Assembly (NCBI GenBank): GCA_905182175.1
Contig: CAJJAT010000007.1
Location: 1 to 64,000, forward strand
DNA from: Flavobacteriales bacterium UBA1494
Lineage (GTDB): Bacteria > Bacteroidota > Bacteroidia > Flavobacteriales_E > Vicingaceae
DNA length: 64,000 nt
Direction of reading: 5' to 3'
Part shown: one piece after another, positions 29,542-33,720 of the stretch
Layout of the letters: every line of letters starts with the position of its first letter
Numbering within the stretch: the stretch's first letter is position 1
Made by a program: the position numbers and the translations under genes
Notes under the pieces: model-generated
Told to the model about the DNA's origin: nothing
Database searches by the model: none
Seen by the model: the letters and a program-made list of their open reading frames with translations, nothing else

Positions 29542-30291
29542 TTATTGAACGTTTCTACTCCCAAAATAAATTGAGACATAGAAATTTGGATAGAATTGTC
29601 TGTTCTCAGAGAAAGCCAAGATTGGTATCTCAGAGAAAAAAGCATCCATAAAAAGTCCTATCTCAGCTGCCTTAATTAATTCTCTTTCATCTCCATAATC
29701 AAAATGCAAACCAATTTTCCCAAATAAGCCAGGATGTATTTTAGTTTCGCCAAATCCATTAAGAAAAGAGGACCGACTGTAAATATTGCTCGTAGTGTGT
29801 TTTTTTGAATCGTAACGCTCTTTTGTTATAACACGACTTACATTCGATTCGTTTCTGATAATGTTAAGATAAACCGGTTTTGCTAATCCAATTGTTGGGC
29901 CACCTTGGATTACATAAGTTATTGAAACACCCTTAATGGATTGTTTTGGAAATATCTCCTTGTGAAAACCAATAGAAGGCCGCAAGACAAAAAATGAATT
30001 TAGCTTTCCGAATATATACCCCCTAACATCCTCCTCAAAAGGATAAATACTTTTAATTTCTCTAGGGTGTTTAATATTTGCAATCTCAATCTCAAAAACT
30101 CTCTTCGTAAAACCAGTTAGATATTTACCATATCGGTACGTTGCATGAAAACCATTGGTGTGCATTCCGAAACCATAAGAATACTCCGTTTTAAACCCTG
30201 TCGTTTTTTCTTCAAATATTGTTTCCTGCGCACTCATTTGTGTTGAAAAAAACAACAAAAACACAAACAATAGATAAACAAGTCTTTTCAA
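29542..30291 (-). CDS. Outer-membrane beta-barrel-like protein of unknown function
   Basis: The 249-residue product has a clear signal peptide (MKRLVYLLFVFLLFFSTQMSAQ, cleavage near SAQ-ET). The rest alternates short amphipathic strands with Gly and aromatic residues: YSYGFGMHTNGFHATYRYG, VRGYIFGKLNSFFVLRPSIGFHKE, GVSITYVIQGGPTIGLAKPVYL, HPGLFGKIGLHFDYG, and a last strand NFYVSIYFGSRNVQ. This fits an outer-membrane barrel of about ten strands. I do not recognise the family. It is divergent from the OsmC gene, which starts 46 bases away. Confidence 0.6.
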   Translation of the reverse strand: MKRLVYLLFVFLLFFSTQMSAQETIFEEKTTGFKTEYSYGFGMHTNGFHATYRYGKYLTGFTKRVFEIEIANIKHPREIKSIYPFEEDVRGYIFGKLNSFFVLRPSIGFHKEIFPKQSIKGVSITYVIQGGPTIGLAKPVYLNIIRNESNVSRVITKERYDSKKHTTSNIYSRSSFLNGFGETKIHPGLFGKIGLHFDYGDERELIKAAEIGLFMDAFFSEIPILAFSENRQFYPNFYVSIYFGSRNVQ

Positions 30292-30296
30292 GCAGG

Positions 30297-30304
30297 TATA
30301 TTTG
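30297..30304 (+). promoter_or_regulatory. Putative -7 box for the OsmC-family gene
   Basis: TATATTTG is an exact TAnnTTTG match, 33 bases before the ATG at 30338. It overlaps an in-frame TTG at 30302, which argues that translation begins at 30338 and not at that TTG. Confidence 0.4.
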
Positions 30305-30337
30305 CAACAAATTTACGCAATACAATATCAACTTGTT

Positions 30338-30742
30338 ATGGGAGTCAAAATAAAAGGAAAATACGAAAACAATTTCAGTTGCTCGTTAGTACACGATAGC
30401 GGTGAAGAGGTTTACACTGATGCACCTAAAGATAACAATGGCAATGGTCAAGCTTTTTCACCGACTGATTTAGTTGCTGCTGCCTTGGCTTCTTGTATGA
30501 TGACCATCATTGCAATCCGAGCAAACGGTAAAAACATTAGTATTGGACAACCAACTTTCTCAATAGAAAAAATAATGAAGACAAGTCCAAGAATGATTCA
30601 AGAAATTAAAATTGAGATTTCATTTTCAGTTCCGTTAACTTACAATGATCAAACGTACTTAGAAAGTGAGGCGCGGAAGTGCCCTGTTGCTCTTAGTTTA
30701 AATCCTGAAATTAATCAGAATGTTGAATTTAAATATGGCTAG
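30338..30742 (+). CDS. OsmC family peroxide-reductase-like protein
   Basis: This 134-residue protein of the OsmC/Ohr superfamily belongs to a class of thiol peroxidases that detoxify (often organic) peroxides, usually working with lipoyl or low-molecular-weight thiol reductants. Both family cysteines are present: one in DLVAAALASCMMTIIAIRA and the second in ARKCPVALSLNPEI. The FSPTDLVAAALASC context is of the YhfA-like branch. The start ATG at 30338 gives MGVKIKGKYENN; an upstream TTG lies in the promoter. It is tail-to-tail with ytxJ, overlapping it by 14 bases, which joins two thiol-redox genes in one locus. Confidence 0.85.
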   Translation: MGVKIKGKYENNFSCSLVHDSGEEVYTDAPKDNNGNGQAFSPTDLVAAALASCMMTIIAIRANGKNISIGQPTFSIEKIMKTSPRMIQEIKIEISFSVPLTYNDQTYLESEARKCPVALSLNPEINQNVEFKYG

Positions 30743-31076
30743 CTGCTTCTTTCGATTGAATCATGTGATGCGATGCAACATGTATGGTTGAACCATCGTT
30801 TAAAAGTATTAATTGGGGAGACTGATGTTCTACGCCAAGTGTGCTCTCAATTTGATTACTAATACTTCTGAATCGAATTAAATCAAGTAGGTAAATCGGA
30901 GTATTACCTGTTTCTTCGTTCCAATTAGTCTCCAATCTATTTTTGGCCATTGAGCTTATAGAACAACGGGTCGAGTGTTTAAACAACGCTACTTTACCTT
31001 TCAAAGAAATTGCATGCAACAAATCATCTTCAGACTCAATGTGCAACCAATTAAATTTAGGATGGGTTTTGAACAT
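30729..31076 (-). CDS. ytxJ: Bacillithiol-system redox protein YtxJ
   Basis: This 115-residue thioredoxin-fold protein (MFKTHPKFNWLHIES...) carries the YtxJ signature KHSTRCSISSMAKNRLE with its single active-site Cys, followed by YLLDLIRFRSISNQIESTLGVEHQSPQLILL, which includes the cis-Pro segment. YtxJ is proposed to act as a monothiol bacilliredoxin that removes bacillithiol from proteins. An ATG at 31106 would add ten residues; 31076 was preferred because MFK is where the family usually starts, but either is possible. Its 5' end overlaps the stop of the short lipoprotein gene upstream, so coupling is likely. Confidence 0.8.
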   Translation of the reverse strand: MFKTHPKFNWLHIESEDDLLHAISLKGKVALFKHSTRCSISSMAKNRLETNWNEETGNTPIYLLDLIRFRSISNQIESTLGVEHQSPQLILLNDGSTIHVASHHMIQSKEAASHI

Positions 31077-31182
31077 TTTTAACATTGGCTTTGCTATATG
31101 CTGCACATCTATGAGAAGATTTGCATGAAAATAATAATGAAGCTGCGAATACAGTAATTAAAACTAATGCTAACTTTTTCAT
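31057..31182 (-). CDS. 41-residue cysteine-containing lipoprotein
   Basis: The reverse strand from the ATG at 31182 gives 41 residues. It starts with a lipoprotein signal (MKKLALVLITVFAASLLFSC, lipobox LFSC with Cys20). The short mature part is CKSSHRCAAYSKANVKNV and then QNPS before a TAA at 31057-31059. So the mature chain would be only 22 residues with a second cysteine in RCAAYS. An exact TAnnTTTG box sits about 20 bases upstream of the start. The gene overlaps the ytxJ start by 20 bases (or fully covers the longer ytxJ start). The function is unknown; the neighbour hints at a thiol-related role. It is easily missed because of its size. Confidence 0.65.
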   Translation of the reverse strand: MKKLALVLITVFAASLLFSCKSSHRCAAYSKANVKNVQNPS

Positions 31183-31203
31183 AATTGAATTATTTAATAT
31201 TAA

Positions 31204-31211
31204 CAAAAATA
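31204..31211 (-). promoter_or_regulatory. Putative promoter of the lipoprotein-ytxJ unit
   Basis: On the reverse strand TATTTTTG is an exact TAnnTTTG -7 box located 22 bases upstream of the 41-residue lipoprotein ATG. No TTG was seen at -33. Confidence 0.45.
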
Positions 31212-31288
31212 GCCAAAGCCTCGAAGCTTTTTGTTCTTTTGTCGAATTTTGTTAACAACGCTTTATTCACAAACATGACTTTTGCAAA

Positions 31289-31972
31289 ATGAAAACAACG
31301 TATTTACGGTCTCGGGTAAACGAAAAATGGGCAAACTTATTATCTTCAGAATTTGAAAGTGACTATTTTAAAAAGCTCAATGATTTTATTAGAGAAGAGT
31401 ATGGTAACTCCTCTATATTTCCCGATAAGAAGGACATATTTTCAGCATTTAACTATTGCGATCCGGATAAGGTTAAGGTGATCATTATAGGACAAGACCC
31501 ATACCATAACAATCAACAAGCAAACGGGTTGGCATTCTCAGTAAATAAAGGAATTCAATTACCTCCTTCCTTAAAAAATATAATCAAAGAGCTAAAAAGC
31601 GATGTTGGTATTTCGGAACCAATGCACGGAGATTTATCACATTGGGCGCAACAAGGAGTGTTCCTTTTAAATACTTGCTTAACAGTAAAAGCACATGAAC
31701 CACTGTCGCATCAAAACAAAGGATGGGAACTATTTACAGATGTTGTAATACAAAAATTGAGTAACAGATCAGATGATTTAGTTTTTTTACTTTGGGGCAA
31801 AAAAGCAGAATCAAAAGCAAAATTGATTGTTGGAAACCATTCTATTTTAAAAAGTCATCATCCCTCACCCCTATCCGCTTATCGCGGTTTTTTAGGCTGC
31901 CGACATTTTAGCAAAACCAACCAAATTTTAAATGAATTAAACAAAACTCCAATTGATTGGGAAATAATTTAA
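31289..31972 (+). CDS. ung: Uracil-DNA glycosylase
   Basis: This 227-residue family-1 uracil-DNA glycosylase removes uracil from DNA to start base-excision repair. The water-activating motif GQDPYH is at 68-73 with Asp70 as catalytic base. VFLLNTCLTV supplies the uracil pocket, and HPSPLSAYRGFLGCRHFSKTN contains the leucine-loop His and DNA-intercalating residues. The length is normal. It is the first gene of a seven-gene forward run reaching 40213, with only 20 bases to the next ATG. Confidence 0.95.
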   Translation: MKTTYLRSRVNEKWANLLSSEFESDYFKKLNDFIREEYGNSSIFPDKKDIFSAFNYCDPDKVKVIIIGQDPYHNNQQANGLAFSVNKGIQLPPSLKNIIKELKSDVGISEPMHGDLSHWAQQGVFLLNTCLTVKAHEPLSHQNKGWELFTDVVIQKLSNRSDDLVFLLWGKKAESKAKLIVGNHSILKSHHPSPLSAYRGFLGCRHFSKTNQILNELNKTPIDWEII

Positions 31973-31992
31973 TTTTTCATCGTTTACGTGTC

Positions 31993-33720
31993 ATGAGAAT
32001 TTTGATTTTAGCTGTTTTATTATTTGGTGCTAAATTCTCTCGTGCTCAGAACAATATGCTTGAAATTAAAGGGATTGAAGAAATTAAAATAAATTACCAA
32101 AACATTGTAAAGGACAGTAACGAAAGTATAATTATTTCTAAAGCTGTCCTAAGAGAGCTATTTAAACTTGGCTATTTAACTGCTTCAATAGACTCATCGT
32201 TTTTCCCAAAAGGCAGCCACTCCGTTTACATTAGTGCAAACCAACAAATTGAATGGGCAAGGTTGGGAATCGGAAATATTACAAAAGAGACATTAGAAGC
32301 AATCGACTTTGCTCCATCAACATTTGAAAACAAAAAATTTAGCGCAATACAATTAAATCGATTTTTAAAAAAAACAGCGATTTTCTTTGAGAATAGAGGA
32401 TACCCGTTTGTATCCATTCAATTAAATAATGTCCAATTCCTAAAATCAAATCAAATTTCCGCAGACCTTTTTCTCGAGAAAAATACTTTTTACAAAATAG
32501 ATAGCATTAAAATAACAGGGAATTCTGGGATAGATAAAACTTATTTATCCAACTACATTGGAATTTCAGAAGGTGATCCCTACCAAGAAGATAAAATAGC
32601 TAGCATAGAAAACAGAATCCGAGAGATTCCATTCATTGTGCTAAAATCGAGACCTGAAATACAGTTTTTTGAAAATGAAGTGAAAATTGTAATTGCCCTA
32701 GAACGTAAAAAAGCAAGCCGCTTTGACGGAGTGGTAGGTTTGTTGACGAACGAATCTACCGGGAGGTTAGAGCTTACCGGAGATGTGGATTTAAGATTGA
32801 CCAATGCCATTAACAAGGGAGAAACGTTTGGCCTAAACTGGAGAAAGCTTAAAGGAAATAGCCAAGATTTAAACGTAGATATAATTTACCCCTACTTATT
32901 TAAAACTCCTTTTGGAGTTGATTTGGACTTTAAATTATTTAAGCGAGACACCACGTTTTTAGACTTAGAAACAAAAATTGGTATTAATTATTTATTGGAA
33001 CGCGGAGACTTTATCAGCTTATTTTTGAAAAACAAGTCCTCTAGTTTATTATCCAAAGGTGTATTCGAGAATGCAGTACAACTTCCCGAATTAGGAGATA
33101 TAAGAATCAACTCTTTTGGTCTAGAATATGCTAGAAATAAAACAAATTACAAATACAATCCTACCCGCGGACTAAACTTACAATTCAACTTTTCTGCTGG
33201 AAGAAAAGAATTAAAGAAAATTAGCACCATAGAACAAAATAACCCTGAGCTCTACGATTCTATTCAATTAATAACAAATCAATTGAAAGGAGGAATATTG
33301 TTAGAGTACTATTTACCAATAGCTGATAGAAGTACTCTAAAGTTTGCCAACAGGAGCGCCAGTTTATATTCTGAAAGAATTTATACCAATGAACTACTGC
33401 GAATTGGTGGATTAAGAACCTTTAGAGGTTTTGATGAAGAATCAATAAGTGCAAGCTCGTATTCTATTTTTACATTAGAATACCGGTTTCTTTTAGATCG
33501 AAATTCATTCTTTTCAATTTTCTCAGATTATGGTTGGTATGAAAGCGACATTACAGGAAACGCATTAATCACTGATAATCCCTTTGGCATTGGCGCTGGC
33601 ATTAGCTTTGAAACCAAAGCAGGAATATTTACTTTTAACTATGCTGTTGGAAGCCAAATGGGAAACCCCATTAATTTGAGGGCTGCCAAAATTCACTTCG
33701 GATTCATTAACTTCTTTTAA
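31993..33720 (+). CDS. BamA/TamA family outer-membrane protein
   Basis: This 575-residue protein has a signal peptide (MRILILAVLLFGAKFSRAQ). A POTRA-like module is at about 165-240 (YKIDSIKITGNSGIDKTYLSNYIGISEGDPYQEDKI), preceded by one or two less clear repeats. The C-terminal 16-strand type barrel (about 250-575) includes the conserved GGLRTFRGFDEESI (lid-loop RGF motif) and ends IHFGFINFF with the C-terminal aromatic of outer-membrane barrels. It is smaller than BamA and has fewer POTRA domains, so it resembles TamA or other Omp85 members that insert proteins or lipids. The ATG at 31993 was preferred over 31957 because it begins the signal peptide. Confidence 0.82.
   Translation: MRILILAVLLFGAKFSRAQNNMLEIKGIEEIKINYQNIVKDSNESIIISKAVLRELFKLGYLTASIDSSFFPKGSHSVYISANQQIEWARLGIGNITKETLEAIDFAPSTFENKKFSAIQLNRFLKKTAIFFENRGYPFVSIQLNNVQFLKSNQISADLFLEKNTFYKIDSIKITGNSGIDKTYLSNYIGISEGDPYQEDKIASIENRIREIPFIVLKSRPEIQFFENEVKIVIALERKKASRFDGVVGLLTNESTGRLELTGDVDLRLTNAINKGETFGLNWRKLKGNSQDLNVDIIYPYLFKTPFGVDLDFKLFKRDTTFLDLETKIGINYLLERGDFISLFLKNKSSSLLSKGVFENAVQLPELGDIRINSFGLEYARNKTNYKYNPTRGLNLQFNFSAGRKELKKISTIEQNNPELYDSIQLITNQLKGGILLEYYLPIADRSTLKFANRSASLYSERIYTNELLRIGGLRTFRGFDEESISASSYSIFTLEYRFLLDRNSFFSIFSDYGWYESDITGNALITDNPFGIGAGISFETKAGIFTFNYAVGSQMGNPINLRAAKIHFGFINFF

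Follow-up and report, generated by a model that had tools for sequence, protein, structure and literature searches.

A described system close in kind to the locus analysed here is LptM (YifL), an outer-membrane lipoprotein of roughly 6 kDa with a short motif beside its lipidated cysteine, which helps LptD to mature according to the part of the source cited here (PMC10567701). For Bacteroidota, a surface lipoprotein export signal (LES) of the form C-X-K-(D/E)2-X has been described, with acidic residues just after the +1 cysteine, again as given in the cited part of the source (PMC5080379). The window analysed, a 64,000-nt stretch of DNA from a Flavobacteriales bacterium, carries on its minus strand (31057–31182) a gene for a mini-lipoprotein of 41 residues. 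Judged by its sequence, the protein is a copy of an uncharacterised family of predicted lipoproteins of roughly 35–60 residues.

Translation of the minus strand from 31182 to 31057 gives MKKLALVLITVFAASLLFSCKSSHRCAAYSKANVKNVQNPS*. The product has a signal peptide with a lipobox directly before Cys20, the predicted lipidation site, and 22 residues from Cys20 to the end; Cys26 lies within HRCAAYS, in a motif of the form C-[PA]-A-Y-[GS], followed by a variable hydrophilic tail. The length, the lipid-attachment cysteine, the 22 residues from it and the second cysteine in HRCAAYS, which the initial annotation of the locus had put forward, were confirmed by the translation. That annotation had also given the frame its own TAnnTTTG box, and a Bacteroidota −7-type box fitting this pattern, TATTTTTG, was indeed found on the minus strand at 31211–31204, 29 nt before the lipoprotein ATG. 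Of 124 homologues, 95 had the pattern in the upstream 150 nt, compared with 6 of 124 reversed sequences, and with one copy taken per genome the figures were 91/111 and 5/111 respectively. A basic N-region, a hydrophobic core and an [AGST]-C lipobox were shared by the window copy and all 28 aligned homologues. The ratio dN/dS over the whole frame was 0.03–0.35 in 20 close pairs (21 pairs, some sharing genomes, were picked by hand and one was skipped because of unequal length). The frame in the window is a real gene; it is kept by purifying selection and has a Bacteroidota-type promoter of its own.

Of 60 genomes searched by tblastn with the 41 residues, 30 gave a match (E ≤ 1e-3), the window's own genome among them. 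In an alignment of 28 of these 30 loci (two near-duplicates were omitted), the invariant columns were M1, K3, C20, C26, A28 and Y29. The tblastn matches, this alignment and a scan for lipobox mini-ORFs are the less biased tests of conservation, since the set of 124 homologues was chosen by the pattern C-x-A-[YFWH], and these positions are fixed in it by construction. Within that set, exactly one extra cysteine was present in 121 of the 124 mature sequences, the tail was variable, and tyrosine occupied the motif position in 120 (the set required Y, F, W or H). The lipobox scan, which used ATG starts only and our own lipobox rule, was run without requiring a second cysteine and found a mini-ORF close upstream in 63 of 99 BrxC loci; the 36 blank loci include G056, G478 and G502, which were counted by other scans. 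All 63 mini-ORFs had a second cysteine, with four, five or six intervening residues in 6, 50 and 7 cases respectively. Only three did not fit CxAY/CxAF, namely G504 (CPSY) and G472 and G510, in which the cysteine is kept and the tyrosine lost.

A looser scan of the 38 loci missed by the motif pattern gave candidates in 11, which were judged by eye to be genuine in five genomes (G472, G478, G502, G504 and G510) and spurious in six. Two tandem divergent lipoprotein copies were seen in G502. The divergent mini-lipoproteins of G472 (CNNEGCRG...) and G510 (CYSSRNVCQA...) both lie just upstream of BrxC, and by sequence they may perhaps represent another family in the same slot.

A profile of the C-terminal half (A2) detected the family in 99 of 149 genomes, own included, at E ≤ 1e-3 and in 27 of 56 families; its 22 rows all came from genomes that were then searched, so that those match by construction. 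Of the 99 lipoprotein-positive genomes, 45 belong to the window's own family. Divergent copies escape this profile: a rescan by sequence, which covered the BrxC-positive genomes, showed at least a dozen of them to have such a copy. A full-length profile run over 395 genomes of the phylum was dropped, as many of its weak matches fell on the signal peptide only (model positions ~1–25), and C-terminal-half profiles were therefore used instead. A broad profile of this kind (A4) matched 16 of the 395 genomes at E ≤ 1e-4, all of the same class, and eight of these (own included) had supplied profile rows. The best E-value with A4 in the other classes was only 0.0029, with several matches running across stop codons, and a profile from one class may miss distant forms in others. 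In the genomes sampled here, the family was thus detected clearly only within the window's own Bacteroidota class, which we take from the names of the relatives to be GTDB Bacteroidia. A further collection of 68 named loci included Salibacter halophilus and MAGs labelled Flavobacteriales, Sphingobacteriaceae, Crocinitomicaceae, Marinilabiliales and Bacteroidales; it overlaps in organisms with the other genomes, so that the two sets of counts are not independent, and many of the genomes are draft MAGs with family and class labels as supplied. Copies at two loci came from a single 0.6-Mb bin labelled Candidatus Paceibacterota and were taken as probable contamination. Both the frame and its cysteines, the conservation of which had been made the test of the original observation, are kept in relatives (30/60 genomes by tblastn and 99/149 by profile), and the observation therefore stands.

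The next gene downstream on the same strand is ytxJ, encoding the monothiol bacilliredoxin BrxC (30729–31076, minus; PF11009, E 2.9e-30). As first reported, the two genes overlap: the nearest ytxJ ATG (31076) lies 20 nt within the end of the lipoprotein gene. A longer GTG frame starts from 31106, and an in-frame TTG is found 10 nt after the lipoprotein stop. In 784,723 bases around BrxC genes, all 68 motif ORFs were upstream of BrxC, on the same strand and within 900 nt. When the scans were pooled, the lipoprotein lay upstream in 66 of 99 BrxC loci and 19 of 35 families; the window's own family accounts for 41 of these 66 loci. At the level of whole genomes, BrxC was absent at E ≤ 1e-5 from 32 of the 99 lipoprotein-positive genomes (21 families), and in 14 further ones BrxC and the lipoprotein were on different contigs or strands. 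Among the 149 genomes, 67 had both, 32 and 32 had only one or the other and 18 had neither (odds ratio 1.18, Fisher p 0.71), with the lipoprotein scored by profile, so that divergent copies are overlooked; leaving out the window's own family gave an odds ratio of 0.46 (p 0.07). Thus the link between the lipoprotein and ytxJ is one of arrangement, not of dependence.

The initial annotation had tied the mini-lipoprotein to bacillithiol, and this link found no support. Beside the lack of association with BrxC, seven MAGs had the lipoprotein but neither BrxC nor BshC, nor any BshA over the cut-off. These seven (two Bacteroidales, one Marinilabiliales and four unplaced Bacteroidetes, of unstated completeness) came from 13 genomes hand-picked among the 68 named loci, and in five comparison genomes BshC and BshA were over the cut-off in all five and BrxC in three. 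A 0.6-Mb bin without BshC, BrxC and BshA was set aside because it was too small. There was no genome-level correlation of the lipoprotein with BrxC or BshC in the 149 genomes, where BshC was present in 135, so that co-occurrence with BshC there says little. Hence the lipoprotein does not occur only together with bacillithiol synthesis or BrxC. The bacillithiol reading is not supported, whereas the observation of a spare thiol is. Since the lipoprotein is found where bacillithiol genes are missing, its role is probably in the outer membrane.

We analysed the neighbouring genes further; more constant companions of the lipoprotein than ytxJ are a divergent uracil-DNA glycosylase, an Omp85 protein and a small outer-membrane barrel. 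On the divergent side are a uracil-DNA glycosylase gene (31289–31972, plus; PF03167, E 1.2e-20), then a gene for an Omp85-superfamily outer-membrane protein with a POTRA domain (31993–33720, plus; PF01103 and PF07244) and, beyond both, RmuC. On the other side, the OsmC-like gene noted earlier is present (30338–30742, plus; PF02566, E 1.4e-10) and convergent, but ytxJ separates it from the lipoprotein gene. It is followed by an unannotated gene for a protein of 250 residues on the same strand as the lipoprotein (29542–30291, minus), a small outer-membrane β-barrel according to AlphaFold2 and Foldseek (hereafter named BARREL). The block from 29542 to 33720 is kept across families, with Omp85 and ung divergent, then ytxJ, convergent OsmC and the barrel, followed in relatives by lipA; individual genes may be missing, but their order is retained. 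Within three genes of the lipoprotein in 111 genomes, we found uracil-DNA glycosylase in 83, BARREL in 73, OsmC in 67, Omp85 in 63 and LipA in 35. In the 36 genomes outside the BrxC list (32 searched for BrxC and four unsearched, two of which show BrxC nearby), the glycosylase was near the lipoprotein in 28, OsmC in 21, BARREL in 19 and Omp85 in 10. The 68 named loci, with flanks of up to 3 kb, gave glycosylase 46, BARREL 38, Omp85 37, LipA 32, OsmC 22 and BrxC 18. BARREL also follows the lipoprotein on the same strand in five of the seven MAGs that lack the bacillithiol genes, four of these five having Omp85 on the opposite side; in flanks of up to 3 kb of the other two, none of glycosylase, BARREL, Omp85, LipA, OsmC and BrxC was found.

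At the E-values used, neither Pfam nor NCBIfam gave a match for BARREL. Its AlphaFold2 model (pLDDT 93.8) is a small β-barrel with OmpA, Ail and NspA as the best Foldseek matches, at modest TM-scores. A search with a profile made from 51 members of the family found it in 135 of the 149 genomes, nearly universal in the sample, and in 96 of the 99 that have the lipoprotein (odds ratio 9.0, p 4e-4). The association was 4.9 (p 0.02) without family f1, and 8.3 with a borderline p of 0.05 as a one-per-family median. We also considered BARREL or Omp85 as the disulfide partner of Cys26, and both were excluded as a general rule, there being no conserved cysteine in either: 38 of 81 BARREL cluster members and 31 of 65 Omp85 proteins are without any cysteine. 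The disulfide partner, if any, thus lies elsewhere.

The reading that we tentatively prefer, with a probability of approximately 0.3, is that the mini-lipoprotein is a periplasm-facing accessory of the outer membrane, loosely similar to LptM, with a lone thiol that is important. After cleavage of the signal peptide and lipidation of Cys20, the Lol route would place the peptide in the outer membrane on the side facing the periplasm; this side is suggested because the acidic export signal of surface lipoproteins is missing, none of the 124 sequences having two acidic residues at positions +2 to +5, which are mostly basic or polar. The lone thiol and the Ala-Tyr motif would then be presented a few residues from the membrane, where Cys26 may pair with a still unnamed partner through a reversible disulfide or a packing contact, and the peptide could serve as a small accessory of outer-membrane assembly as LptM assists LptD. 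The coupling to ytxJ would be an old co-transcription arrangement, kept or lost by lineages. The constant second cysteine (63/63), the low dN/dS and the occurrence of two copies in 13 of 111 genomes are consistent with this reading, as are the genome-level association with BARREL and not with BrxC, the frequent glycosylase and BARREL neighbours, and the order of BARREL and Omp85 in the MAGs without bacillithiol genes. However, the partner, the thiol state and the location are putative, and BARREL and Omp85 have no conserved cysteine. Furthermore, BARREL is nearly universal and its association is borderline at one genome per family, slow rearrangement rather than function may account for the lasting gene order, and the strong adjacency to BrxC (66/99) is treated as incidental. 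A broader proposal, which we consider speculative and rather doubtful, is that of a class-wide, bacillithiol-independent outer-membrane thiol peptide, a lipid-anchored cofactor of ~22 residues with its single periplasmic cysteine as the working group. It would serve the assembly of the outer membrane or redox quality control in the envelope through a mechanism so far undescribed in bacteria.

The main rival to an outer-membrane accessory is the periplasmic thiol sensor or reductant proposed at the outset, now without bacillithiol: in an oxidative-stress locus (ytxJ, OsmC and ung), the anchored thiol would be oxidized or thiolated and pass on a signal or electrons. What stood of that proposal is a conserved tiny lipoprotein beside ytxJ with a second cysteine, which G472 and G510 retain without the tyrosine motif; its bacillithiol part found no support in the co-occurrence test (p 0.71) and the seven MAGs. 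Adjacency to BrxC in 19 of 35 families and OsmC in 67 of 111 loci speak for such a function, whereas the absence of a genome-level correlation with BrxC or BshC and the MAGs lacking all three genes speak against it. YtxJ and OsmC are, moreover, cytoplasmic families, and as the lipoprotein would be exported, one would not expect it to exchange thiols with them directly. We therefore regard a sensor or reductant as possible, though on the unlikely side.

It is fairly unlikely that the protein is a constitutive, structural outer-membrane lipoprotein forming homodimers via its cysteine without a specific partner. Tiny size, one extra cysteine in nearly all mature sequences, a variable tail and tandem copies would all suit such a role, but the conserved AY motif (tyrosine in 120/124, in a set that required Y, F, W or H) and the low dN/dS suggest a specific contact. 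Tandem CxAY pairs were observed in 13 of the 111 genomes. If ytxJ lies downstream, the second copy is the one closer to it; the first copy can be shorter (e.g. ...CPAYAIELIVK) or carry a longer basic tail (G491 and G521). A metal-binding peptide at the outer membrane, using histidine and cysteine, seems improbable. Although a histidine lies between both cysteines in 98 of the 124 sequences, and three residues before the second cysteine in 80, it is missing there from 26 (e.g. CSSKLCPAYG forms), and no metal transporter is found among the six largest neighbour clusters.

A leader ORF whose translation only controls ytxJ would fit the close spacing of the two genes. Of 60 genomes, 45 had a ytxJ start codon no more than 8 nt from the lipoprotein stop and 58 had one no more than 30 nt away, and this tight spacing suggests translational coupling of ytxJ to the lipoprotein gene; near the stop, 21 of the 60 had only TTG or GTG starts, with no ATG in the stretch scanned, which likewise suggests that ytxJ translation may depend on the upstream gene. 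Nevertheless, the lipoprotein persists without ytxJ (32 of the 99 positive genomes lack BrxC) and the constraint is on the protein sequence, lipobox included, making a mere leader highly improbable. An untranslated chance ORF, for which only the short length and the want of a family-library match over cut-off would speak, is already refuted by conservation, with dN/dS ≤ 0.35 in 20 pairs, 27 of 56 families and a dedicated promoter.

Taken together, our results show that these mini-lipoproteins form a genuine and widespread family in which a spare cysteine is conserved; the role of the family is probably in the outer membrane, and the literature searches made here gave no description of it. A mature protein of about 22 residues that 27 of 56 sampled families have kept, its second cysteine constant, at one conserved locus next to outer-membrane genes, is hard to call filler and easily missed in annotation. 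It offers a compact, testable entry to periplasmic thiol handling or barrel assembly in Bacteroidota, and the locus illustrates how adjacency to a redox enzyme gene can mislead about function.

A sensor or reductant of this kind had been called undescribed to the annotator's knowledge, and the searches made here agree as regards the family. No Pfam or NCBIfam model exceeded its curated cut-off for the window copy, 28 members and five lipoproteins tested. In openly licensed papers, searches on small or cysteine lipoproteins of Bacteroidota and on YtxJ or bacilliredoxin in Bacteroidetes or Flavobacterium gave no description of the family among the matches listed, as far as the text of these goes, and searches with the motif strings gave no relevant paper. 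The best NCBIfam match was the PG1828 family lipoprotein (NF050142, a model of 59 positions named after a Porphyromonas protein), seen in 19 of 28 members up to E 0.1 with a best E of 1.1e-4. It is a small lipoprotein like the window protein, yet the match covers only the signal peptide and lipobox region (residues 1–28, profile 1–27 of 59) and scores no higher than 22.8 bits, the cut-off being 50. BrxC/YtxJ (PF11009), the gene for which adjoins that of the lipoprotein downstream, is a different protein of a different compartment, and the lipoprotein occurs without it. The LptM model NF047847 was likewise under its cut-off in the five lipoproteins (best E 0.049, 13.7 bits against 27.7, over the signal peptide at residues 1–21), and PF13627 (LptM) had no match up to E 0.1 among the 28 members. 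LptM differs also in belonging to another phylum with other neighbours, and no CxAY motif or second cysteine is mentioned for it in the part of the source cited (PMC10567701). The likeness is that both are very small lipoproteins with a short motif by the lipid cysteine, LptM acting on an outer-membrane barrel according to the same part of that source (PMC10567701).
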